The position numbers and the translations under genes were made by a program. The notes beneath the pieces were generated by a model. It had not been told where the DNA came from and did no database searches. It saw only the letters and a program-made list of their open reading frames with translations. DNA of 64,000 nt from Lysobacter alkalisoli (lineage in GTDB: Bacteria > Pseudomonadota > Gammaproteobacteria > Xanthomonadales > Xanthomonadaceae). The stretch is from contig NZ_CP041242.1 in assembly GCF_006547045.1 (NCBI RefSeq), positions 3,730,001 to 3,794,000 of the forward strand, read 5' to 3'. Each line of letters opens with the position of its first letter. The first letter of the stretch is position 1. This document shows, one piece after another, positions 17,773 through 30,517 of the stretch.

Positions 17773-20499
17773 TCACCCGCCCGCAACGGGCTCGGCCGGT
17801 ATGTCTCCGGCAACCTCCGGCGCCATCTCCGGGCTGATCTTCTCGATCGTGTGGCGCAGTTCGCGGCCGAGGATGAACTTGGCGTCGCGGGCCCACTGGT
17901 CGAGACGGTTGTCGAAGGCGAGCTTGCCGTCATCGTCGCTCCAGACCAGACCCAGCTCGCGCAGTTTCTGGATGAAGCCGCGGAACAGGGTCTTGTCGAA
18001 GAACTCCGGCGCGGCCGGTGCGTACAGCAGACTCAGGCGCTGCGCGGTGAGCTGGCACATGCTTTCCAGCTGACCGGCAGTAAGGGTGCCGGCGCCGTTC
18101 TTGGCCAGCACCGAGATCGCGATGTAATAGCGCTCGAACGCCTGCTGCAGCGAATGGCCGATCGCGCGCAGGCGGAACACCTCGTCGCTCTGGCCGGGGC
18201 TGCGGGCAAGGATGCCGCCCTCGTCGTCGCTGACCCGCTGCAGCAGCCCCTCGTCGATGAACACGCCAATGGTGGCCTCGATGCGGGCGGCGAACTCGTC
18301 TTCGCTCCACGGCAGGAACAGTTCGGCCTGCAGGAACGGGTACACGCTGCGGCCCAACCGCAGCAGGCCGGCCAGACTCATGCGCCGGTTGTGCTGGAAG
18401 CAGCAGGCGATCCACGATGCGGCGGTGAACAGGTGGACGACGTTGTTGCGGTAGTAGCTCAGCAGCACCGCGTTGTCGCCTGACACGCCGAGCACGTCGC
18501 CGAGCGGATGCGCGGTACGGACGAGCACGCCGATTTCCTCGCCGTGGGCGATGATCTGTTCGGGCGGGTGCGGGGTGACGGTGACGCGCTCGCCGTAAGG
18601 CACCTGGTCGAGCAGGGTCTTGCTCAACGCGATCTGGGCCAGCAGGTCGCCCTCGCCCATCGCGTGCTTGGGCGTGGACAGCAGTGCCAGCGCGAGCAGG
18701 TTGATCGGATTGACGTCGGCGGCGCGATTGACGTTGACCTGGATGCGCTGCGCGAGTCCGTCGATGGTCTCCGCCAGCCAGGCCGGCTTTTCCTCCTCCG
18801 ACAGCGGCTCGCCATTCCAGCCCGGCGCATGCTCGGCGAGCATGTCGTTGAGCCGGATCGGCTCGCCGAAGTTCACCACCACCTGGCCGTAGTTGCTGCG
18901 CAGGACCTTGGGGATGCCGGTCAGCAACTGCCAGATCGACTCCTTGTTCTTGGGCTTGCCAGACAACTCGTCGAGGTAGCTGTTGCCCTCCATCAGCTTC
19001 TCGTAGCCGATGTAGACCGGCTGGAACAGCACCGGCCGGGTCGGCTGGCGCAGATAGGCGCGCACGGTCATCGCCAGCGAGCCGCCCTTGGGAGGCAGCA
19101 GCCGACCGGTACGCGAGCGGCCGCCCTCGATGAAGTATTCGATCGAGTAGCCGCCGGCGACCAGCTGCGCCATGTACTCGCGGAACACCGCCGAGTACAG
19201 CGCGTTGCCGCGGAACGTGCGGCGGGCGAAGAACGCACCGCCCTTGCGCAGGAAGGTGCCGATGACCGGCAGGTTGAGGTTGACCCCGGCAAAGATGTGC
19301 GGCGGCACGATGCCGCGGGTGTACAGCAGGTAGCTCAGCAGCAGGTAGTCCATGTGGCTGCGGTGGCTGGGCACGTAGACCACCTCGTGGCCGGGGGCGT
19401 CCTGCTTGAGCTTGTCGAGGTGGTGGACCAGCACGCCGCGGTAGATCCGGTTCCAGACGAAGGTGAGCAGGAAGCTGGCCGAGCGCACCACCGGGTGCGA
19501 GTAGTCGGCGGCGATCTCGTAGGCGTAGGCGTGCGCCTTCTTCCAGGCGTCGGTCTGGGAGGTCTTGTCGCGGCGGGCCTGGTCGGCGATCGCCTCCTTG
19601 ACCGTCGACGCGGCCAGCACCCGGTCGACCAGCAGGCGGCGGGTCGACAGGTCGGGGCCGATGATCGCGGCACGGATGCGGCGGAAATGCGCGCGCAGCA
19701 CCCGCGACAGTTTGCGCACGGTGCGCTCGGGCGGCAGGCCTTCATCGCTGATTCCGCGCAGCGACACCGGCGGCGCGAACCGGACCAGGGTGTCGCGCCC
19801 ATTGAGCAGGATCGCGAGCAGGCGGCGGAAGCGGCCGACCAGCGCCCAGTTCTCCGAGAACAGCACCGAGAACCAGCCGCTCTGCTTGTCCGGCGCACGG
19901 CCGACGAAGATCGACACCGGCACCAGTTGCACGTCGAGCCCGGGCTCGGCGCGATGCGCCTCGAGCAGGCGCGCCAGCGATTCGGAATGACTCTTGCCCG
20001 AGGGCGGCGAGCTCCCCAGCGGCACGCGGGTGGCATTGCGCCGCGACAGCGCAACGTAGGCGCGCTTGCGGCCGAGCGGATCGCCCGGCAGCGGCTGCAG
20101 CGGTGAGGGCAGGCCGGCCTCGCGACAGGCGCGGTCGAGGATCAGCGCGTTGGACAGGCCGTAGTCCTCGAGCACGTAGCAGAGCGGGCGGCCGCGGCCG
20201 TCGTCATGGATGCCGGGGTCCGACGGTTCGATGGTCAGCGAGACCCATGGCGCCAGCATCCGCCCGAGCAGGCGCGCCCACCAGGGGCGGCGGGTACGCA
20301 CCGGGCGCGAGGCGGCGGGCGCGACGGCCGGGGCGGCGTCGGAGATTGGCGGCGGGCTGGGATCGGCGGCATCCCCGTCACCCGTGTGGCTCGGCTTCAC
20401 CTCCGCCGACGGCATGGACATGGCGGAGTCGGCCGGCGCGTCCGCGGTCTTCGACGGGTCGGCGGCGTCCGGGAATGGCAGGGGCGACTGTTTCGGCAT
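17773..20499 (-). CDS. plsB: Glycerol-3-phosphate acyltransferase PlsB
   Basis: 908 residues, a little over the usual ~810-890 because of an N-terminal Pro/Ala/Asp-rich tail (residues 1-75). PlsB makes lysophosphatidic acid from glycerol-3-phosphate and acyl donors at the inner membrane. The acyltransferase blocks are PSHRSHMDYLLLSYLLY (HX4D), GGAFFARRTFRGNALYSAVF, and YFIEGGRSRTGRLLPPKGG. ATG 20499 precedes a PKQSPLPFPD start seen in similar proteins; ATG 20505/20508 are close alternatives. Confidence 0.95.
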   Translation of the reverse strand: MPKQSPLPFPDAADPSKTADAPADSAMSMPSAEVKPSHTGDGDAADPSPPPISDAAPAVAPAASRPVRTRRPWWARLLGRMLAPWVSLTIEPSDPGIHDDGRGRPLCYVLEDYGLSNALILDRACREAGLPSPLQPLPGDPLGRKRAYVALSRRNATRVPLGSSPPSGKSHSESLARLLEAHRAEPGLDVQLVPVSIFVGRAPDKQSGWFSVLFSENWALVGRFRRLLAILLNGRDTLVRFAPPVSLRGISDEGLPPERTVRKLSRVLRAHFRRIRAAIIGPDLSTRRLLVDRVLAASTVKEAIADQARRDKTSQTDAWKKAHAYAYEIAADYSHPVVRSASFLLTFVWNRIYRGVLVHHLDKLKQDAPGHEVVYVPSHRSHMDYLLLSYLLYTRGIVPPHIFAGVNLNLPVIGTFLRKGGAFFARRTFRGNALYSAVFREYMAQLVAGGYSIEYFIEGGRSRTGRLLPPKGGSLAMTVRAYLRQPTRPVLFQPVYIGYEKLMEGNSYLDELSGKPKNKESIWQLLTGIPKVLRSNYGQVVVNFGEPIRLNDMLAEHAPGWNGEPLSEEEKPAWLAETIDGLAQRIQVNVNRAADVNPINLLALALLSTPKHAMGEGDLLAQIALSKTLLDQVPYGERVTVTPHPPEQIIAHGEEIGVLVRTAHPLGDVLGVSGDNAVLLSYYRNNVVHLFTAASWIACCFQHNRRMSLAGLLRLGRSVYPFLQAELFLPWSEDEFAARIEATIGVFIDEGLLQRVSDDEGGILARSPGQSDEVFRLRAIGHSLQQAFERYYIAISVLAKNGAGTLTAGQLESMCQLTAQRLSLLYAPAAPEFFDKTLFRGFIQKLRELGLVWSDDDGKLAFDNRLDQWARDAKFILGRELRHTIEKISPEMAPEVAGDIPAEPVAGG

Positions 20500-20545
20500 C
20501 CCCATCATTATGCCGGTAGCCGGCGACGGGTAGCGTTTGCCCGAC

Positions 20546-21517
20546 TCAGGATGCCGCCGCCGCAGGCTCGCCGCTATCGGCGCCAGTCCCATCGGGCGCG
20601 GCGTCCGGCTCCCCCGCATCGGTCTCGCCAGTCGACGGCAGCGGCCCGGCCTCGTTCTCGGCATGGCGCAGCAGATCGCTCAGGTACCAGCGGTCGTCAT
20701 GGCGCTCCAGCGCGAGCACCACGTCGATCTCCTGCCCGGCCAGGACGTAGCGCAGGCGCACCTGTGCCCGGTCGCCGGTCTGTTCGACCAGACTGGATTC
20801 GACACTGTCCAGCGCGGCATCCAGGTCCAGGCCGTAGTCGGCCAGCACCTGCTTCAACGTTTGGATGAAGGGCGTCATCCGTTCCAGGCCGGGCTCCAGG
20901 CCGGCCGCGGCAAAGGCGTCATCGCCGGCCAGCCCGGTTTCACGGGCCGCGGCCGCCAGCCGGGCCAGTGCCGGACCGGCACGCTGGCGATCGGACAGTG
21001 GCGCCTGCTGACCCCACTGGCTGAGCACGGCGGCCAGTTGCACGTAGTGCTCGCGCTCCGCGTCGCTGTAGTCGGAGTGGTTGTTGATGTACTGCGCCGC
21101 GAACAGACCCAAGGCCGAGGCGGTGGCGCGCAGTTCGCGGGTGGCGCCAGCGAACTGGCGGTTGTAGACCGCCATCAATTCCTGCTCCGAGTCCGGCTCG
21201 GCCAGGGCGGTGATCATCGCCGGCAACTGCTCGTCCAGAGGCAACAGGGTCAGCGGCCACAGCGTGCGGCCCTGCGACCACGCGACGCCCAGCCGCGCAT
21301 GCAGCGCGGGCGGTACCGCGTGACGGGCATAGGCGTTGAGATCATTGCGGCGCAGGTCGTCGACCAGTTGAGCCACCGCTTCGGTCGGGCGGTTCGGCGC
21401 AGTTCCGACGTCCAGCGGCGCCGGCTCAGGCCGGCAAGCCGCCAACAATACCGCCCCGGCCAGCACGGCCCATAACCAACGCTGGCGATTGACCGGAGCC
21501 CCCCGGAAACCTTGCAT
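20546..21517 (-). CDS. Predicted lipoprotein of unknown function
   Basis: 323 residues with a lipobox LLAAC (Cys about residue 23). The mature part is predominantly helical and acidic, for example AVAQLVDDLRRNDLNAYARHAV, and a C-terminal segment (VRLRYVLAGQEIDVVLALERHDDRWYLSDLLRH) looks like a small NTF2-like sheet. The final 35 residues are Asp/Glu/Ala-rich. I start at ATG 21517, spaced 6-8 nt from AAGGGG; an ATG two codons upstream sits on top of it. It ends 47 nt before plsB on the same strand, so co-transcription is possible. I do not recognise the family. Confidence 0.85.
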   Translation of the reverse strand: MQGFRGAPVNRQRWLWAVLAGAVLLAACRPEPAPLDVGTAPNRPTEAVAQLVDDLRRNDLNAYARHAVPPALHARLGVAWSQGRTLWPLTLLPLDEQLPAMITALAEPDSEQELMAVYNRQFAGATRELRATASALGLFAAQYINNHSDYSDAEREHYVQLAAVLSQWGQQAPLSDRQRAGPALARLAAAARETGLAGDDAFAAAGLEPGLERMTPFIQTLKQVLADYGLDLDAALDSVESSLVEQTGDRAQVRLRYVLAGQEIDVVLALERHDDRWYLSDLLRHAENEAGPLPSTGETDAGEPDAAPDGTGADSGEPAAAAS

Positions 21518-21788
21518 GCGCATCCCCCCTTTCGCTGACCGGCATCTTGGCGGTCGCGGTACGGGCAGACAAGGCGGGGTATTGCCAACCTGGTCGCGGA
21601 TCGAACCCGCAATCGAGACGCATCGGGCACGGTGCTCAACGTTGCGTGGGAACTGACACAGGACGTCATAAGTTGTCGCTGAACCAGGCAACAGAACAGA
21701 AAACATGATGGTTGCGTGAAGTAATGCGCTCTGCACCACACCACTTCAGAGCCGCTTCAGCGCCTTAATGTGATGCGCATCTCAATAG

Positions 21789-21894: not shown

Positions 21895-22491
21895 ATGCCC
21901 ATGAACCTCAAGCACAGCCTTCTCGCCGCCGCCGTCCTGGCGGTCGCACTTCCGCTCACCACCCACGCCAATTCGAGCTTCATCGACGGCAACGGCAGCG
22001 CGACCGCGCACCTGGACTTCCAGGTGACCGTGCCGCGGGTCCTGCTCCTGCGCGTCGGCTCCGACGCCGGCACCGTCGACCTGATCGATTTCGACGTGAC
22101 CGCCGCCGACCTGCAGAACGCCGGCACGCAGACGGTCAGCGGCACCGGTGGCGACCTGGGCGGCGGCAGCGTCACCGCGCACGTGATGGGCAACAACGGT
22201 GCGATCACCCTCGGCGCGACCACCGTGGGCGCGCTGCTCAACGGAGACGGCGATTCGATCTCCTATGCCGAGATCACCACCAGCAGCAGCGACTCTGGCC
22301 TGCCCTCGCCGACCCTCGTCGACGGCACGACCAGCTCGGTAGTACTGGCCCCGACCTCGGGCAGCAAGGTCACCGACCGCAGCGCCCAATGGACCTTCGA
22401 GTACGCCAACAGCGCGCTGGTCGCAGCCGGCACCTACGGCGGCCAGAACGTCAACAACGGTCGGGTGACCTACACCGCCGCGATGCCCTGA
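21895..22491 (+). CDS. Secreted pilin-like subunit 1 of a chaperone-usher-type operon
   Basis: 198 residues with a signal peptide ending at about THA (residue 24). The mature protein is beta-rich, Gly/Ser/Thr/Asn-rich and lacks cysteine. Near the N-terminus it has FQVTVPRVLLLRVGS. The C-terminus WTFEYANSALVAAGTYGG and GRVTYTAAMP is echoed in the next gene, so the two are paralogues. Being first after a sigma-54 promoter suggests it is the abundant (major) subunit. No named pilin family was recognised; subunit status is inferred from the chaperone and usher-like genes downstream. Confidence 0.8.
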   Translation: MPMNLKHSLLAAAVLAVALPLTTHANSSFIDGNGSATAHLDFQVTVPRVLLLRVGSDAGTVDLIDFDVTAADLQNAGTQTVSGTGGDLGGGSVTAHVMGNNGAITLGATTVGALLNGDGDSISYAEITTSSSDSGLPSPTLVDGTTSSVVLAPTSGSKVTDRSAQWTFEYANSALVAAGTYGGQNVNNGRVTYTAAMP

Positions 22492-22619
22492 CCCGGCGCT
22501 GGTACGGACGCGCGGGCAGGCCGTCCCGAAGCCGCCTGTCTGCCCCGTCCGCGAAGACGGCGGCCCGTCATGGGCCGCCGTCGCACCCCACCCCGATTGC
22601 ACGCTTTCCCGGATCCCGC

Positions 22620-23249
22620 ATGCACACCCGCGCGCTCGCGACCACGCTACTCCTGCTGATGGCAACGCTCTGGTCGGCACAGGCCGCGGCGTTCACCGTC
22701 AACATCAGCTCAGGCTCCCGCCAGCTCTACCTGCGGGTCGGCGACGGCGTCTTCAGCAGCGCCAATTACGTCAACGGCGGCATCCCAGGCAACGGAGGTT
22801 CGATCAACCGGGTCTCGGTAAGCGTGCCGGCCGCGGCGCTGGGCAACGGCACCGCGCTGGCGATGACCGGCAACGCGACCCAGAACACCAGCAATTACGA
22901 CGGCTATGCGTTCTGCAATACCGGCCAGGTCTACGTGGGCGGGTTCTATCGCCGGCCGAACAACAATGCGAGCGTGGCGACGCTTACCGTCAGCACGCCA
23001 ACCCACCTGGCCAATGCCGCCGGCGACACCCTGCCATTCAACCGGATCAGCTGGACCAGCAGCGGCAACGGCGATACCGGCGCCCAGCCGATTCCTGCGG
23101 GCGCTTTCACCGGCGGCCAGCAGACCCTGGCGACGTTCTCCCGCAACACCTGGAACGAGAGCTGCCTGAGCTTCAGCTACGCCAACACCGACGTACTCGC
23201 TGCCGGCGAGTACAACGGCCGCGCCACCTACACCCTGTCGGCGCCATGA
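22620..23249 (+). CDS. Secreted pilin-like subunit 2 (possible minor or tip subunit)
   Basis: 209 residues with a signal peptide ending SAQAA (about residue 23). It shares with subunit 1 the motif LYLRVGDG and the C-terminal FSYANTDVLAAGEY followed by GRATYTLSAP. It has two cysteines (in YAFCNTG and ESCLSF), absent in subunit 1, which could form a disulphide. Longer loops rich in Asn, Gly and Ser distinguish it. Its stop overlaps the next start (ATGA at 23246-23249). Confidence 0.8.
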   Translation: MHTRALATTLLLLMATLWSAQAAAFTVNISSGSRQLYLRVGDGVFSSANYVNGGIPGNGGSINRVSVSVPAAALGNGTALAMTGNATQNTSNYDGYAFCNTGQVYVGGFYRRPNNNASVATLTVSTPTHLANAAGDTLPFNRISWTSSGNGDTGAQPIPAGAFTGGQQTLATFSRNTWNESCLSFSYANTDVLAAGEYNGRATYTLSAP

Positions 23250-23752
23250 TGCTGCGCCGCCTGCCGATCACCGCCCGGCTTGCCGCCTGCACCCTGCTTG
23301 CCACCTTCCTGTACCTGGCCTTGGCCATGCACGACGCACAGGCCCAGTCGCGCAGCTACCCGGTCGACGACAGCGCCAGCCAGGTACTCGAACGACTGGT
23401 GCCGATGGAGTGGGACAGCACGCCCGGCTCAGGCGCCGCCTCGCACGCGGTGAGCGGTACCGTGACCGTGCTGGTACGGCTGGACGTGGCGCCATGGCGC
23501 GGCCGGCCGGGCCGGATCTACATGAGCCTGCCGCACCAGCCCAGCGGCCCGGTCACCGCGACCTGGACCACCCGCGGCCCATTGCTGCCCGGCGTTCTGC
23601 GTGCGGGCGAGCGCCAGCTGGTCTACGCCGGCCCCATCGATACCGCCCTCATCGAAGACACGATGCGCCTGCACCTGCAGGCCGACGGCCGCCGCCTGGG
23701 CCGCAATGAGCAGCTGGATTTTTCGTTCGAGATCGAACCCGGAGCCCTGTGA
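23246..23752 (+). CDS. Small secreted protein of the pilus-like operon
   Basis: 168 residues. A signal peptide ends near AQA|QS (residue 34). The rest is beta-rich with VSGTVTVLVRLDVAPWRGRPG and GPVTATWTTRGPLLPGVLRAG. It could be a minor subunit, an initiator, or an assembly factor; I do not recognise a family. ATGA overlaps at both ends couple it to subunit 2 and to the chaperone gene. Confidence 0.75.
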   Translation: MMLRRLPITARLAACTLLATFLYLALAMHDAQAQSRSYPVDDSASQVLERLVPMEWDSTPGSGAASHAVSGTVTVLVRLDVAPWRGRPGRIYMSLPHQPSGPVTATWTTRGPLLPGVLRAGERQLVYAGPIDTALIEDTMRLHLQADGRRLGRNEQLDFSFEIEPGAL

Positions 23753-24594
23753 TGACCTGTTTCCGCCTCCGCGTACGCGACCTGCATCGCGCCTGCCTCC
23801 CGGCCGTAGCAGTGCTTGGCGTGCTGCTGCCGGGCCTGCTGCTGCCGGGCACGAACGCGCATGCGGGCGAATTCGCGATACTGGCCTCGCCCCCGCGCAT
23901 CGAGGCTCGAGCCAGGCCCGGGGAGACCTGGCGCAGCATCGTCGAACTGACCAACGTGGCCCGCAGCGATACGCCGCTGACAGTGATGACGGCCGATTGG
24001 ACGTTGGATGCGTCCGGCAATGCGCAGTTCGACGATGCGCTGGCCGACGGCAGTTGCCGGCCCTGGGCCGCCATCGAGGCGCGCGAGTTCAGCCTCGGGG
24101 CCGGCCGCAAGCGCCGCTTCCGCTTCGAGGTCGACGTGCCTGCCGATGCGCCACAGGGCGAGTGCCGTTTCGCGCTGATGTTCGAAGGCGCGCCGCAGGC
24201 CGCGCCGGGCGATGTACCGGTGCCGGTATCGGGCCGGCTGGGGATCATCGTCTACCTGGCCATCGGTGACGCCGCGCCGTACCTGGCCGTGGCCGGCCAC
24301 CACGTCGCGATGGTCCAGGGCCAGCGGCTTCCGGTACTGGAAATCAGCAATACCGGCGATGCCCACGGCCGCCTGGACGGTTACCTCAACGGCACCGATG
24401 CCGAAGGCAGACGTATCGCCCTCGCCCCTTCGAGTCTGCCGATCCTGGCCGGCGAGACCCGCGCCATCATCCTGTCGCCGGTGCAGGACGACAGCGGTAC
24501 GCCGGTGCCGGCGATCCATTATCCGCTGACCCTGAAAGGCCGCCTCGACGCCGGCCGGCAGCGCGTCGACATCGACTTCGTCGTCCGGCCGTGA
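23749..24594 (+). CDS. Periplasmic pilus chaperone-like protein
   Basis: 281 residues with a long hydrophobic signal segment ending near ..NAHA. The mature protein has two Ig-like halves. The first begins FAILASPPRIEARARPGETWRSIVELTN, which is the edge-strand and Arg-containing pattern of PapD-type chaperones. The second contains VLEISNTGDAHGRLDGYLNG. Such chaperones cap subunits by donor-strand complementation in the periplasm. It resembles the alternative (CS1-like) chaperones more than FimC/PapD, but I am unsure of the class. Overlaps of 4 nt flank it. Confidence 0.75.
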   Translation: MMTCFRLRVRDLHRACLPAVAVLGVLLPGLLLPGTNAHAGEFAILASPPRIEARARPGETWRSIVELTNVARSDTPLTVMTADWTLDASGNAQFDDALADGSCRPWAAIEAREFSLGAGRKRRFRFEVDVPADAPQGECRFALMFEGAPQAAPGDVPVPVSGRLGIIVYLAIGDAAPYLAVAGHHVAMVQGQRLPVLEISNTGDAHGRLDGYLNGTDAEGRRIALAPSSLPILAGETRAIILSPVQDDSGTPVPAIHYPLTLKGRLDAGRQRVDIDFVVRP

Positions 24595-26630
24595 AGGCCG
24601 TGCGCCTGCCGATGCCGCGGCATCCGGCGACGATGAGCGCACTCGCTTCGGCGGTCGCGCTGTTGCTGGCGACACTGCCGGCCGGCGCCGATCCGGCAGA
24701 CGATCCGACAGACGACCCGCCGGCCTACCAGGACCGGGTGATCGACCCCGCATCGCTGTCGAAGGCGTCCGACGACGACGCGGACACGGACTACGACGCG
24801 AACGGCCTGCCGCGCGCGTTCCACGCCGAAGCGGCGTACAGCCACGGCAGGTTCGGCGACGATACCTACCGCGAACACGGCGTCTCGGCCGGCGGCTTCC
24901 GCGAAACCGGACACCACGGCACCCTGTCGCTGCAGGCGAGCCTGTCCCGTCGCGACGACACCCGCGCGAACGCATCCCCGACCGGCAGCGCTGGCGACGA
25001 ATGGCGCGGCGCGGCCACGCTCTGGCAGCGCAACCTCGCCATGCCCGGACAGTGGTCCGGCGACAACGGCCTGGGTGTGCTCAATACCCCGGCACTGCCG
25101 CTGCAGCGTAGCCAGTACCGCTTCTTCCTGCCCAGCGTGGCCTTCGCCGGCGCCAGCAGCGAATGGCGCAACACCGACTCGGGCCTGCGCCTGCAGGCCG
25201 GCGGCGGGCGCATCGGCCATTTTACCGGCACCCGCCTGCTCGGCTTCGAACTGGACGAGGGCCACGTCGGCGCCATCGGCGCGCAATGGCGCTGGGCCCC
25301 GGGCTGGACCGGCGCCGTCACCGCGTTGAGCAGCGACGGCCGCCTGGTCGCCGGCGACCAGGGCCAGGCAGTGATCGAGGCGAACACCTCGCACGCCGTC
25401 CATGCCGCCACCGCCTGGCAGGGCACCCGCGACCGGATCCAGCTGAACCTGCTGGCCAGCGACGCCGACGCCGGCGCGGCGAACGGGGCATGGATCGATG
25501 CCAGCGCCGCCCGTGGCCGTTACAGCCACAACTACGGCGCCTTCTACCTGGGCGACGATCTCGCCTGGGGCAGCTATCCGATCAACAACGACGTCCGCGG
25601 CGGTTACTACCGCATCGCCTATCAGTTCGCCCGCTGGAGCTGGAACGCGGGCCTGGACCGCATCGAGTCGATCTCCGGCGACAGCTTCGATGGCACCTAT
25701 GCCAACGCCCATGTCCGCTACCAGGCCAGCAGCCGCCTCGGCTACGGCGGCAGCCTGAGCCTGCGCGACGGCAGCGATGACGCGGTCGGCGCCCAGCTGT
25801 TCCTCGACGCACGCAACGACTGGGGCAACACCCGCCTGCAGGTCGACGGCGCCAGTGCCCGGAACGGCAACGGCCAGAGTGGGGACCGCGACAGCTGGCA
25901 GCTCACCCTCGATCAGGCGTTTCCGGTCGACACTGGGAGCCGACTGTCGGCGTCGTTGTCGCATGGTGAACTGTCATACGACGGCCGCCCGGCCACGCGC
26001 AGCACCGGCCTGGCGCTCTACGGCGGCCAGGACCTCGGCGACCGGCTCGCGATCGATGGCCAGGTCCGCTGGACCCACGGCAATGGCCCCGACGCGTTGC
26101 GCGGCTTCAACGCCAACATCGGCATCAACTGGCGTCTGGCCCGCCACTGGTCGCTGGCGGCGACGCTGTACCAGAACCAGGGCGCGCGACGTTCTCCGTT
26201 CCAACTCGACCCGCTGGCGAACGACCCGCTGTTCGTCGACCTGCCGCGCGAACGCTCGGCCTTCCTGGTGCTGCGCTACGAGCGCGAGGCCGGGCGCCCG
26301 CGCGCGGTGATCGGCGGCGCCCCGGGCGCTGCCACCGGCCACGTCGCCGGCAGCGTCTACCTGGACGACAACAACGACCGCGTCCGCAACGCGGCCGAGC
26401 TGCCGGTCGCCCACCTCACCGTGATCCTCGACGGCCGTTACGCGGTGCGCACCGACAGCGCCGGGAATTTCGAGTTCCCCAACGTCGCGGTCGGCCGCCA
26501 CACCCTCACCGTGCTGGCCGACAATCTGCCACTGCCCTGGTTCTTCGACGACACCGAGGCCGAGCGCCAGATCGAGCTCGAGGTCCGCCAGGACCTGCGC
26601 ATCGACATCCCCGCCACGCGGCCGCGCTGA
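24591..26630 (+). CDS. Short outer-membrane usher-like beta-barrel protein
   Basis: 679 residues against 800-plus for classical ushers. A signal peptide (SALASAVALLLATLPAGA) leads to an acidic linker (about 35-60), then a long run of alternating beta-hairpins (for example GHHGTLSLQASLSRRDD, SLRLQAGGGRIG-like stretches, NIGINWRLARHWSLAATLYQN) consistent with an outer-membrane barrel. Residues about 585-650 form a small Ig/carboxypeptidase-regulatory-like domain (AGSVYLDDNNDRVRNAAELP, then DSAGNFEFPNVAVG), as found near the C-terminus of CS1-type ushers. GTG 24591 overlaps the chaperone stop; ATG 24612 and 24633 are alternatives. No recognisable plug or N-terminal chaperone-binding domain was seen. 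It likely exports the operon's subunits. Confidence 0.75.
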   Translation: MKAVRLPMPRHPATMSALASAVALLLATLPAGADPADDPTDDPPAYQDRVIDPASLSKASDDDADTDYDANGLPRAFHAEAAYSHGRFGDDTYREHGVSAGGFRETGHHGTLSLQASLSRRDDTRANASPTGSAGDEWRGAATLWQRNLAMPGQWSGDNGLGVLNTPALPLQRSQYRFFLPSVAFAGASSEWRNTDSGLRLQAGGGRIGHFTGTRLLGFELDEGHVGAIGAQWRWAPGWTGAVTALSSDGRLVAGDQGQAVIEANTSHAVHAATAWQGTRDRIQLNLLASDADAGAANGAWIDASAARGRYSHNYGAFYLGDDLAWGSYPINNDVRGGYYRIAYQFARWSWNAGLDRIESISGDSFDGTYANAHVRYQASSRLGYGGSLSLRDGSDDAVGAQLFLDARNDWGNTRLQVDGASARNGNGQSGDRDSWQLTLDQAFPVDTGSRLSASLSHGELSYDGRPATRSTGLALYGGQDLGDRLAIDGQVRWTHGNGPDALRGFNANIGINWRLARHWSLAATLYQNQGARRSPFQLDPLANDPLFVDLPRERSAFLVLRYEREAGRPRAVIGGAPGAATGHVAGSVYLDDNNDRVRNAAELPVAHLTVILDGRYAVRTDSAGNFEFPNVAVGRHTLTVLADNLPLPWFFDDTEAERQIELEVRQDLRIDIPATRPR

Positions 26631-26662: not shown

Positions 26663-27559
26663 TCAGGGCGCGACGTCGAGTGCGGCACGCTTGGCTGCGC
26701 GGCGTACTTCCAGCGGCTGGCTCCAGTCGTTGTTGAAGGTCGCCGGTTCCCACGAACCGTAGGTCGGGTTGGGCAACATCCACCAGCGCTCGCCGAACCA
26801 GTCGCCGTACTCCTCCAGCAACGCGGCGCGGCCCTCGGGCGTGTTGCTGACGACCTCGACGAAGTCGCCGAGCTGGTCGCCGAACTGCATCAGCACCCGG
26901 TACTCGCGCCCGGCCAGCCGCCGTCGGCATTTCTTCTCGCTGCCGTGCTGCTCGCAGCCCTCGACATGGGTACCGAGGCCGAGGAACACGCTGTCGTCGG
27001 CGACCGGCAGGCCGACCTCACGCAGGTTGGCAAGGGTCGCCTCCTGCAGATGCTGGGCGCGGTTGGACAGATACAGCAGGGTCACGCCCTTGTCCGCCGC
27101 GGCCCTGGCGAAGTCGACCACGCCCGGCACCGGCTTGGCCTTCTTCTCCGCCACCCAGGCCGCCCAGCTGACCTCGTCGTAGCTTTCGCCATCGCGCACC
27201 AGCCGCGCCTGGTAGGGCGAGTTGTCGAGCACGGTCTCGTCGATGTCCACGATCACCGCCGGCCGCAAACCCGCGCCCGGGTTCTCGCGTTCGGCCGGCA
27301 CCAGCGCATCCCAGTTCGGCTCGGCCAATGCCTTGTCGAGGTGGTCGGCGGCGGCCTTGAACGTCTGCGTGGTCAGCATCCGGTACTCGGCCGAGGTCTG
27401 CACCCACAACACCGCATTGAGGTTGTCGTCGGCGGGGACGGCTTCGGCGCTGTCCGCGGCGGTCGGCGACGCTTGCGACGGGACAGGCTCGACGCGCTTG
27501 CAGGCGACGAGGGCAAGGGAACAGGCCAGCAGGGACGCGGCCAGGAGATGGGGGCGCAT
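26663..27559 (-). CDS. Class C-type acid phosphatase lipoprotein (HAD superfamily, e(P4)-like)
   Basis: 298 residues. The lipobox LVAC puts the cysteine at about residue 20, so it is likely anchored to the outer membrane facing the periplasm. HAD motif I is DIDETVLDN (catalytic aspartates) and motif II LLYLSNRAQH. GDQLGDFVEV carries the later acidic residues. e(P4)-like enzymes hydrolyse nucleotide monophosphates and help use NAD or phosphate esters. It converges on the usher-like gene. Confidence 0.9.
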   Translation of the reverse strand: MRPHLLAASLLACSLALVACKRVEPVPSQASPTAADSAEAVPADDNLNAVLWVQTSAEYRMLTTQTFKAAADHLDKALAEPNWDALVPAERENPGAGLRPAVIVDIDETVLDNSPYQARLVRDGESYDEVSWAAWVAEKKAKPVPGVVDFARAAADKGVTLLYLSNRAQHLQEATLANLREVGLPVADDSVFLGLGTHVEGCEQHGSEKKCRRRLAGREYRVLMQFGDQLGDFVEVVSNTPEGRAALLEEYGDWFGERWWMLPNPTYGSWEPATFNNDWSQPLEVRRAAKRAALDVAP

Positions 27560-27616
27560 GACGGCTCCGGGATCCATGGAAACGTCCGAGTGTAGCGGCC
27601 CTGGATTTCAGTCGAT

Positions 27617-28534: not shown

Positions 28535-30517
28535 TCAACCTTCTTCCAGCAACGCCCGGATCGCGGCCAGCCCGGCCTGAGCACGTTCCTGCTTGCGCGC
28601 GGCGTCGGCTTCCGGGTCGGCACCGTCGCGCTGGATCTCGGCGGCGGGCAGTTCGTCGAAGAAGCGGCTTGGCTGCAGGCGGAGGCGGTCGCCCCAGCGC
28701 TGGGTCTCGCGGCAATGCGACAGCCACAGCTGTTCCTTGGCACGGGTGATGCCGACGTAGAGCAGGCGGCGCTCCTCCTCCAGGCTGCCTTCCTCGACCG
28801 CGACCTCGTGCGGCAGGGTGCCGTCGTCCATGCCGACGATGAACACATAGCGGAACTCCAGTCCCTTGGCCGCGTGCAGGCTCATCAACCGGACCTGGTT
28901 GCCGGCCTCGCCCTTGTCGGCGTGCGAGAGCAGCGCGAGCTGTGCGGCGAGTTCGCCGGGACCGCTGCTCTTGCCGCCTTCGAACCAGTCGGCCAGTTCT
29001 TCGAGGTTGGCCTTGCGGCGCTGGAACGTCGCCTCGTCCTTGCACTGGGCGCGGATCGCGGTGAGCAGGCCGCTCTTCTCGGCCAGCACCCGCACCAGCT
29101 CGGCCGGCGGCAGGCGCTGCGCATCGCCGCGCAGCGAGCGGATGATGCCGATGAAGCCATCGAGCGCATTGCCGGCCCGCGGCGCGAGCTGCTTGAGCAC
29201 GCCGACCGACTCGGCCGCACGCGACATCGGCATGTGCGCCTTCTGCGCCATCTCGGCCAGTTTCGACAATGTGGTCGCACCGACCTCGCGCTTCGGCGCC
29301 TGTACCGCGCGCAGGAACGCCGCGTCGTCGTCGGGGTTGGCGATGAGCCGCAGCCAGGCCAGCGCGTCCTTGACCTCACCGCGTTCGAGGAAGGCGGTGC
29401 CGCCGGTCAGGTGGTAGGGCACCTTCAGCAACTGCAACGACTTCTCCAGCGCGCGGCTCTGGTGGTTGCTGCGGAACAGGATGCAGAAGTCGCTCCACGG
29501 CGCCTGTTTGGCGGTGGCGATGAAGTGGATCTCGGCGGCGACCTTCTCGGCCTCGTGGGCGCCGTCCTTGCATTCCCAGATGCGGATGCGCTCGCCGTCG
29601 GCGTTGTCGCTCCACAGGGTCTTGAGGTGCTCGTGCGGGTTGTGCGCGATCAATGCGTTGGCGGCGCGCAGCACACGGTTGGAGCAGCGGTAGTTCTGCT
29701 CCAGCTTGACCACTTTAAGCTCCGGGTAGTCGGTACCCAGGGTCAACAGGTTGTCCGGGTTGGCGCCGCGCCAGGCATAGATCGACTGGTCGTCGTCGCC
29801 CACGCAGGTGAACAGACCCTTCGGGCCGGCGATCGCCTTCAACAGCCGGTACTGGGCATCGTTGGTGTCCTGGCACTCGTCGACCAGCAGGTAGCCGATG
29901 CGCTCGCGCCAGCCCAGGCGCGCATCCTCATCGTTCTCCAGCAGCTCCACCGGCAAGCGGATCAGGTCGTCGAAGTCGACCGCGTTGAAGGTGGTCAGCC
30001 GCGCCTGGTAACGCGCGTACAGCTGCGCGGCCTCGATCTCGCGCTGCGAACGCGCCACCGCCAGTGCCTGCTCCGGCGACAGCCCGGCATTCTTGGCGCG
30101 CGAGATCAGGTTGCGGGCGTTGTCGAGTGCGTCGGGCTTGCTGCCGGCCGGCAACAGGTCCTTGATCTGGGCGGCGGTGTCGTCGGAATCGAACACCGAA
30201 AAACCGCGCCGCAGCCCGACCTTGGCCTGGTCGATCTGCAGCATCTTCAGCCCCAGCGCATGGAAGGTGCAGACGGTCAGCCCTTCGGCCGCATCGCCCC
30301 GGATGCGCTTGGCCACGCGCTCCTTCATCTCCTTCGCCGACTTGTTGGTGAAGGTGATCGCCGCGATCCGCCGCGCCGGCATGCGGCCGGAAGCGATCAG
30401 GTGGGCGATCTTCTCGACGATCACGCGGGTCTTGCCGCTGCCGGCGCCGGCGAGCACGAGCAGGGGGCCGTCGGTATGCAGGACGGCGGCGCGTTGGGGG
30501 GGGTTGAGGCCGTGCAT
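28535..30517 (-). CDS. rep: ATP-dependent DNA helicase Rep (UvrD/Rep superfamily 1A)
   Basis: 660 residues (E. coli Rep 673). Rep is a 3'-to-5' helicase that clears replication forks. The start LNPPQRAAVLHTDGPLLVLA, Walker A AGAGSGKTRV, ITFTNKSAKEMKERV, Walker B LLVDECQDTN, CVGDDDQSIYAWRGA, LEQNYRCS and the late LMSLHAAKGLEF and EEERRLLYVGITRAKEQL motifs are all present. It is closer to Rep than to UvrD or PcrA in length and motif detail. It is divergent from the methylglyoxal-synthase-like gene, with a structured repeat in between. Confidence 0.95.
   Translation of the reverse strand: MHGLNPPQRAAVLHTDGPLLVLAGAGSGKTRVIVEKIAHLIASGRMPARRIAAITFTNKSAKEMKERVAKRIRGDAAEGLTVCTFHALGLKMLQIDQAKVGLRRGFSVFDSDDTAAQIKDLLPAGSKPDALDNARNLISRAKNAGLSPEQALAVARSQREIEAAQLYARYQARLTTFNAVDFDDLIRLPVELLENDEDARLGWRERIGYLLVDECQDTNDAQYRLLKAIAGPKGLFTCVGDDDQSIYAWRGANPDNLLTLGTDYPELKVVKLEQNYRCSNRVLRAANALIAHNPHEHLKTLWSDNADGERIRIWECKDGAHEAEKVAAEIHFIATAKQAPWSDFCILFRSNHQSRALEKSLQLLKVPYHLTGGTAFLERGEVKDALAWLRLIANPDDDAAFLRAVQAPKREVGATTLSKLAEMAQKAHMPMSRAAESVGVLKQLAPRAGNALDGFIGIIRSLRGDAQRLPPAELVRVLAEKSGLLTAIRAQCKDEATFQRRKANLEELADWFEGGKSSGPGELAAQLALLSHADKGEAGNQVRLMSLHAAKGLEFRYVFIVGMDDGTLPHEVAVEEGSLEEERRLLYVGITRAKEQLWLSHCRETQRWGDRLRLQPSRFFDELPAAEIQRDGADPEADAARKQERAQAGLAAIRALLEEG

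Follow-up and report, generated by a model that had tools for sequence, protein, structure and literature searches.

The closest described systems are the chaperone-usher pathways of the classical class (type 1 and P pili), the alternative class (alpha; CS1/CFA/I and ECP) and the archaic class (sigma; Csu of Acinetobacter). Known ushers comprise five domains: a 24-stranded beta-barrel, a plug, an N-terminal domain (NTD) and two C-terminal domains (CTD1 and CTD2) (PMC8410936). In these machines, recruitment, gating and hand-over of subunits are described as tasks of the NTD, plug and CTD2. About 60% of the surface that binds the chaperone is contributed by the N-terminal tail in classical ushers (PMC9452303). 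The partner chaperones carry carboxylate anchors, which are Arg89 in strand F1 of archaic chaperones and Arg8 plus Lys112 in classical ones, and a proline kink in strand D1 (Pro59 of CsuC) has been reported to be invariant across chaperone-usher chaperones (PMC4654587). Here we describe a five-gene operon (termed g1 to g5) of Lysobacter alkalisoli that is nearest to the archaic class, yet lacks the archaic hallmarks. It lies in a 64,000 nt stretch (termed the window; contig NZ_CP041242.1, positions 3,730,001 to 3,794,000) of the single 3.86 Mb contig that makes up the whole genome.

We read the operon as a probable chaperone-usher pathway of divergent type, whose product would be a surface fibre. 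The basis for this reading is computational: the genes are conserved, the chaperone has a predicted fold of the expected kind, a donor-strand pattern is present, a profile link joins g5 to archaic ushers, g5 has no match to NTD, plug or CTD2, and in other genomes a Csu-type operon takes the place of this one in the same chromosomal slot. An open reading frame (ORF) check of the window finds all five genes on the + strand, arranged as follows.

g1, 21895..22491, + strand: 198 amino acids (aa); secreted subunit with a signal peptide, probable major pilin
g1-g2 spacer, 22492..22619, + strand: 128 nt with a perfect 11 bp hairpin, GACGGCGGCCC-GTCAT-GGGCCGCCGTC
g2, 22620..23249, + strand: 209 aa; paralogue of g1, candidate tip or initiating subunit
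g3, 23246..23752, + strand: 168 aa; small secreted protein, DDSxS motif near its N-terminus
g4, 23749/23752..24594, + strand: 281/280 aa (GTG or ATG start); predicted periplasmic PapD-like two-domain chaperone
g5, 24591..26630, + strand: 679 aa; predicted minimal usher with a tail, a beta-barrel and a single C-terminal domain

Each of the five proteins has an N-terminal hydrophobic stretch resembling a signal peptide. Overlaps of 4 nt join g2 to g3, g3 to g4 and g4 to g5, so that the original prediction of five co-oriented genes with 4 nt overlaps from g2 to g5 is confirmed, the g3/g4 overlap requiring the GTG start. A scan for sigma-70 promoters and T-run terminators gave no signal above chance.

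A genome search provided 22 Xanthomonadaceae loci (L017, L018 and L095-L114), and every one of them has the genes in the order g1 to g5. The Lysobacter loci of the contig collection show the same operon, except one (L010) that ends at a contig end. A profile search with g5 recovered full-length homologues in 43 of 297 Xanthomonadaceae genomes, the remaining matches being to its SdrD_B-like end only. That this five-gene order recurs, and that g5 is this frequent, is more than chance would produce and confirms that g1 to g5 form a real, conserved unit.

Profile comparison links g5 to ushers. An alignment of 42 homologues matches archaic ushers (those of relatives and this genome's own) at 96.6% over 349 columns in HHalign, with 11% for TonB receptor barrels and 2-3% for a reversed control. 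Residues 295-679 of g5 are co-linear with residues 394-806 of an 890-residue archaic frame (L118), a segment that comprises the barrel end and CTD1. The g5 barrel alone matches usher profiles at 85-87%, and the C-terminal domain matches archaic CTD1 at 92% over 92 columns (SdrD_B control, 47%). When the predicted structure of g5 is searched with Foldseek, FimD and PapC occupy ranks 1-12.

The domains of g5 are an N-terminal tail (containing Y46 and D48), a barrel spanning residues ~70-570, with 26 predicted strands in the AlphaFold2 model (pLDDT 60), and a C-terminal domain at ~580-679. The archaic NTD is not matched, and only ~40 mature residues precede the first strand (at ~residue 74). There is no profile match to the plug, the longest gap between predicted barrel strands being 22 residues, and none to CTD2, g5 ending where CTD1 ends (residue 806 of 890 in L118). 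Because the NTD, plug and CTD2 regions are unmatched, g5 appears to consist of a barrel and one C-terminal domain. All the distant families examined have g5 homologues that are just as short, which argues that the short form is an old, stable state. An usher-like protein much shorter than classical ushers had been proposed, as had a possible new minimal chaperone-usher type; the profile match to archaic ushers supports the first point, and the three domains not found in g5 support the second.

Tyr46 and Asp48 of the tail are invariant in 15 homologues, down to 22% identity, and a YxDxx motif followed by a hydrophobic residue is present in the tails of 41 of the 42 g5 homologues. Since the classical tail supplies more than half of the binding surface, it is plausible that the g5 tail recruits the chaperone by itself.

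The protein g4 (residues numbered from the ATG at 23752) gave an AlphaFold2 model with a mean predicted local distance difference test (pLDDT) score of 81. The best Foldseek matches to this model are the chaperones CsuC (archaic) and CfaA (alternative), with E values of ~1e-9, and VIA-align returned YadV at Z 12.5 (root-mean-square deviation (rmsd) 4.8, 188 residues aligned) and CsuC at Z 12.4 (4.6, 181). An alignment of 16 divergent g4 proteins matches archaic chaperones at 97.1% over 187 columns that include both domains, and the reversed control for a related alignment gave 0.3%. These models and profiles support the assignment of g4 as a periplasmic chaperone with two immunoglobulin-like domains and the PapD fold, as had been anticipated. 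Cysteines C102 and C138 are invariant. In the putative G1 donor strand (L163-I165-V167-L169-I171), all five columns are 100% hydrophobic among the 16 sequences.

The carboxylate-anchor residues of g4, read through the alignment with CsuC, are a mixture of classes. The column of classical Arg8 falls at position 49 and is Arg or Lys in 16 of 16 sequences (R49 in the window), and that of classical Lys112 is Ile166. At the column of archaic Arg89, 15 of the 16 sequences have Ala (Ala141) and the other has Met; R139, two positions before, is mostly a basic residue.

The N-terminus of g1 has the pattern of a donor strand. Among 18 divergent homologues, the columns of A36, A38, L40, F42, V44 and V46 are 94-100% hydrophobic, and the intervening positions are 0-22% hydrophobic (35, 37, 39, 41 and 43) or 39% (45). 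The G1 pattern of g4 is less strict than this, because non-polar residues also occupy positions 166 and 168. Although g1 and g2 are homologous (99.7-99.9% in profile comparison) and both end in a conserved GxYxGxVxYT (GTYxGxVTYTAxxP in the C-terminal strand of g1), g2 has only ~15 residues between its signal peptide and a conserved RVG, compared with ~28 in g1. The six-position donor-strand pattern is missing from g2, which would fit a subunit at the fibre tip. Pfam gave no match for g1 in 18 members or for g2 of the window, PF05229 included.

The hairpin in the g1-g2 spacer has counterparts elsewhere. Perfect stems of 9 bp or more occur within 110 nt 3′ of 25 of 47 g1-type genes and of none of 42 g2-type genes, and the stem sequences differ widely. 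This distribution, common after g1 and never seen after g2, suggests that the hairpin is a candidate attenuator or mRNA-stability element that would favour expression of g1, as would suit a major subunit.

For g3, no recognizable relatives were found outside these operons. Its Asp42, in the DDSxS motif that follows the signal peptide, is invariant. We considered whether g3 supplies the NTD, plug or CTD2 in trans. Sequence-level evidence does not support this idea, as g3 has no profile similarity to any of these domains, nor to chaperones or SCPU pilins, and it is absent from two distant systems (L089 and L091).

How the operon relates to each described class can be judged from these features. 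With the archaic class it shares the two-domain chaperone (97%), putative donor-strand subunits and, as described below, a chromosomal slot, and g5 has the profile match (96.6%) to the usher barrel end and CTD1. It differs in having no SCPU subunits, no match to PF00577 or PF00345 and no chaperone Arg89, in the three domains missing from g5, and in the additional protein g3. The alternative class is represented by CfaA among the top structures for g4. However, alpha ushers match the g5 profile at 12-29%, compared with 96-97% for archaic ushers in HHalign; no CS1-type subunit match was obtained, and PF16967 and PF15976 (alpha-type usher) have no match in g5 of the window or in the members scanned. 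Resemblance to the classical class consists of R49 at the Arg8 position and of the FimD and PapC structures that head the Foldseek list of g5, but the Lys112 column is Ile166, and of the five domains of classical ushers g5 has two. Its C-terminal domain also falls in the same fold group as SdrD B-like and carboxypeptidase regulatory-like domains, from which it is set apart by additional C-terminal residues that align with CTD1 of ushers.

On the hallmarks tested, the operon therefore belongs to neither the archaic, the alternative nor the classical class. The original prediction of a pilus-like operon stands as far as the chaperone-usher reading is concerned, on fold and profile evidence, and the suggestion of a divergent CS1/alternative type is rejected on the usher match given above. 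A complete match to a well-described fimbrial class, which would have spoken against the prediction, was not seen, the hallmarks of no class being present in full. A barrel of porin type without a plug had also been named as contrary evidence. The plug is indeed missing, yet the barrel carries an usher-like C-terminal domain and is encoded beside a chaperone and putative donor-strand subunits.

Several observations weigh against a chaperone-usher assignment. The AlphaFold2 model of g5 is weak (pLDDT 60). VIA-align with this model lists only generic barrels, with no preference and with ushers absent, but the weakness of the model makes this comparison uninformative. A looser alignment of 15 g5 sequences matches ushers at 96.0% and TonB barrels at 68%, and the latter value limits how well the barrel can discriminate on its own. 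The C-terminal domain matches SdrD_B-type domains at 99%, above its 92% for CTD1. In g4, the column of the invariant proline is Glu109, the placement of which is uncertain because it adjoins a 7-residue insertion containing P104. The similarity of g1 and g2 to SCPU pilins in HHalign is weak and lies mostly in the last strand. Finally, barrel-only relatives of g5 have no chaperone or subunit genes nearby. These relatives (L092, L093 and L094) are ~430-560 aa long and lack the C-terminal domain, and two of them (L093 and L094) share one conserved gene neighbourhood.

Independent evidence for a role shared with Csu-type operons comes from the chromosomal site. The names of the flanking genes are readings from the sequence.

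left flank gene, 20546..21739, - strand: divergent, no function read; beside a plsB-like gene at 17773-20664
right flank gene, 26663..27577, - strand: convergent phosphatase-type lipoprotein gene, followed by a Rep-type helicase gene at 28535-30517

The operon is thus bordered by the plsB-like gene and the second flank gene on one side and by the lipoprotein and helicase genes on the other, and it lies between the same flanks in loci of Lysobacter and of two other genera (L110 and L112). In one genome of the same genus (G001) and one of another genus (G021), these flanks enclose, in the same orientation, a Csu-type operon with the gene order SCPU, chaperone, usher, SCPU. In a further genome (G002), the two flanks are ~370 nt apart and the slot is empty. 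The exchange of the two operons in one slot argues for a shared role, and it makes their functional equivalence directly testable. Outside these genera, most operons occupy other chromosomal sites.

This exchange, together with the archaic identity of the closest profile matches of g4 and g5, could also be explained if the operon were an ordinary archaic, Csu-type operon whose sequences have drifted and whose usher domains were lost from a normal archaic usher. We consider this unlikely. PF00577, PF00345 and PF05229 have no match in any member scanned, the Arg89 anchor column is Ala141, no archaic counterpart of g3 was found, and the uniform shortness of g5 indicates a stable state of long standing. 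Moreover, the two systems coexist in the same genome, where a separate Csu-type archaic operon (G000:C1:2613032-2617656; L245) matches PF05229, PF00345, PF00577 and PF05229.

The Gram-positive WxL/WxLIP system offers a second alternative, in which g4 and g1/g2 would form a non-fibrous surface complex and g5 would export or display single subunits without polymerization. For that pair, insertion of a beta-hairpin strand of WxLIP into WxL has been predicted (PMC10599100). WxLIP is the top VIA-align match of g4 (Z 14.2, rmsd 6.8, 226 aligned), and distant g4 members have sub-threshold matches to PF06030 (best E 4e-5; best score 24.0 bits, compared with the Pfam cut-off of 27.3). However, these matches concern domain 1 only, g1 and g2 match no WxL model, and the WxL system has no outer-membrane partner, whereas an usher-like g5 is always present here. 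Given also that g1 appears to carry its own donor strand, this explanation is improbable, more so than drift of an archaic operon. It is very improbable that g5 has no relation to ushers and is a porin or transporter placed incidentally beside a chaperone-like protein: the low-confidence model, VIA-align Z scores similar to those of OprD-type porins and the existence of solitary barrels would allow this reading, but g4 adjoins every full-length g5 examined, no C-terminal domain is present in the solitary barrels, and the usher match exceeds the TonB match in both g5 alignments.

If the operon is a divergent chaperone-usher pathway, the following mechanism can be proposed. The subunits g1 and g2 would reach the periplasm via Sec, where g4 would lend its G1 strand to each subunit and grip the subunit C-terminus in the cleft between its domains. 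We infer that g4, once loaded, binds g5 at its short N-terminal tail, that g2, lacking a donor strand, begins the fibre at its tip, and that g1 polymerizes through donor-strand exchange to form a fibre. This fibre would exit via the g5 barrel and be held at its base by the single C-terminal domain. The role of g3 would be accessory, perhaps as a minor subunit or as an anchor.

The chances seem evenly balanced that this operon represents a fourth, old branch of chaperone-usher pathways beside the classical, alternative and archaic ones, whose usher has only a barrel between a peptide tail and a single C-terminal domain. If so, donor-strand fibres can be built and exported without a folded NTD, a plug gate or CTD2, and a natural usher of this kind would offer a minimal model for the essential steps and for plug-free closure of the pore.

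None of the Pfam and NCBIfam fimbrial models is reached by any of the five window proteins, the sole score being a below-cut-off match of the SdrD_B/carboxypeptidase-like end of g5, and a profile search of PDB sequences gave no useful match. Because current models do not detect it, the family is missed by fimbrial surveys, though it is common in Xanthomonadaceae. Among open-licence papers, we found no description of the operon or of an usher lacking both plug and NTD.

About a dozen further, distant gammaproteobacterial families carry the gene set in rearranged form, with g5 mostly upstream or on the opposite strand. The number of subunits differs among these systems, extra g1-type genes being present in L087, L089 and L091, and L089 and L091 leave no room for g3. 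In a phylum-wide sample, the g4 profile matches in just 10 of 398 genomes. Solitary g4 homologues occur in another class of the phylum (L229-L232); these were not counted as systems because none of the four neighbourhoods contains an usher or subunit profile match, and the neighbours of L229 look unrelated.

One genome contains the operon twice, and both copies score equally (G004:C8 and G004:C25; L002, L009, L010 and L013). The estimated contamination of this assembly is 6%, and the copies reflect either duplication or an assembly artefact. Resemblance to the C-terminal domain of g5 was also the sole route to two giant ORFs of ~4,258 and 8,576 codons (L019 in G026:C33 and L070 in G601:C17), both of which contain repeated SdrD_B-like domains.

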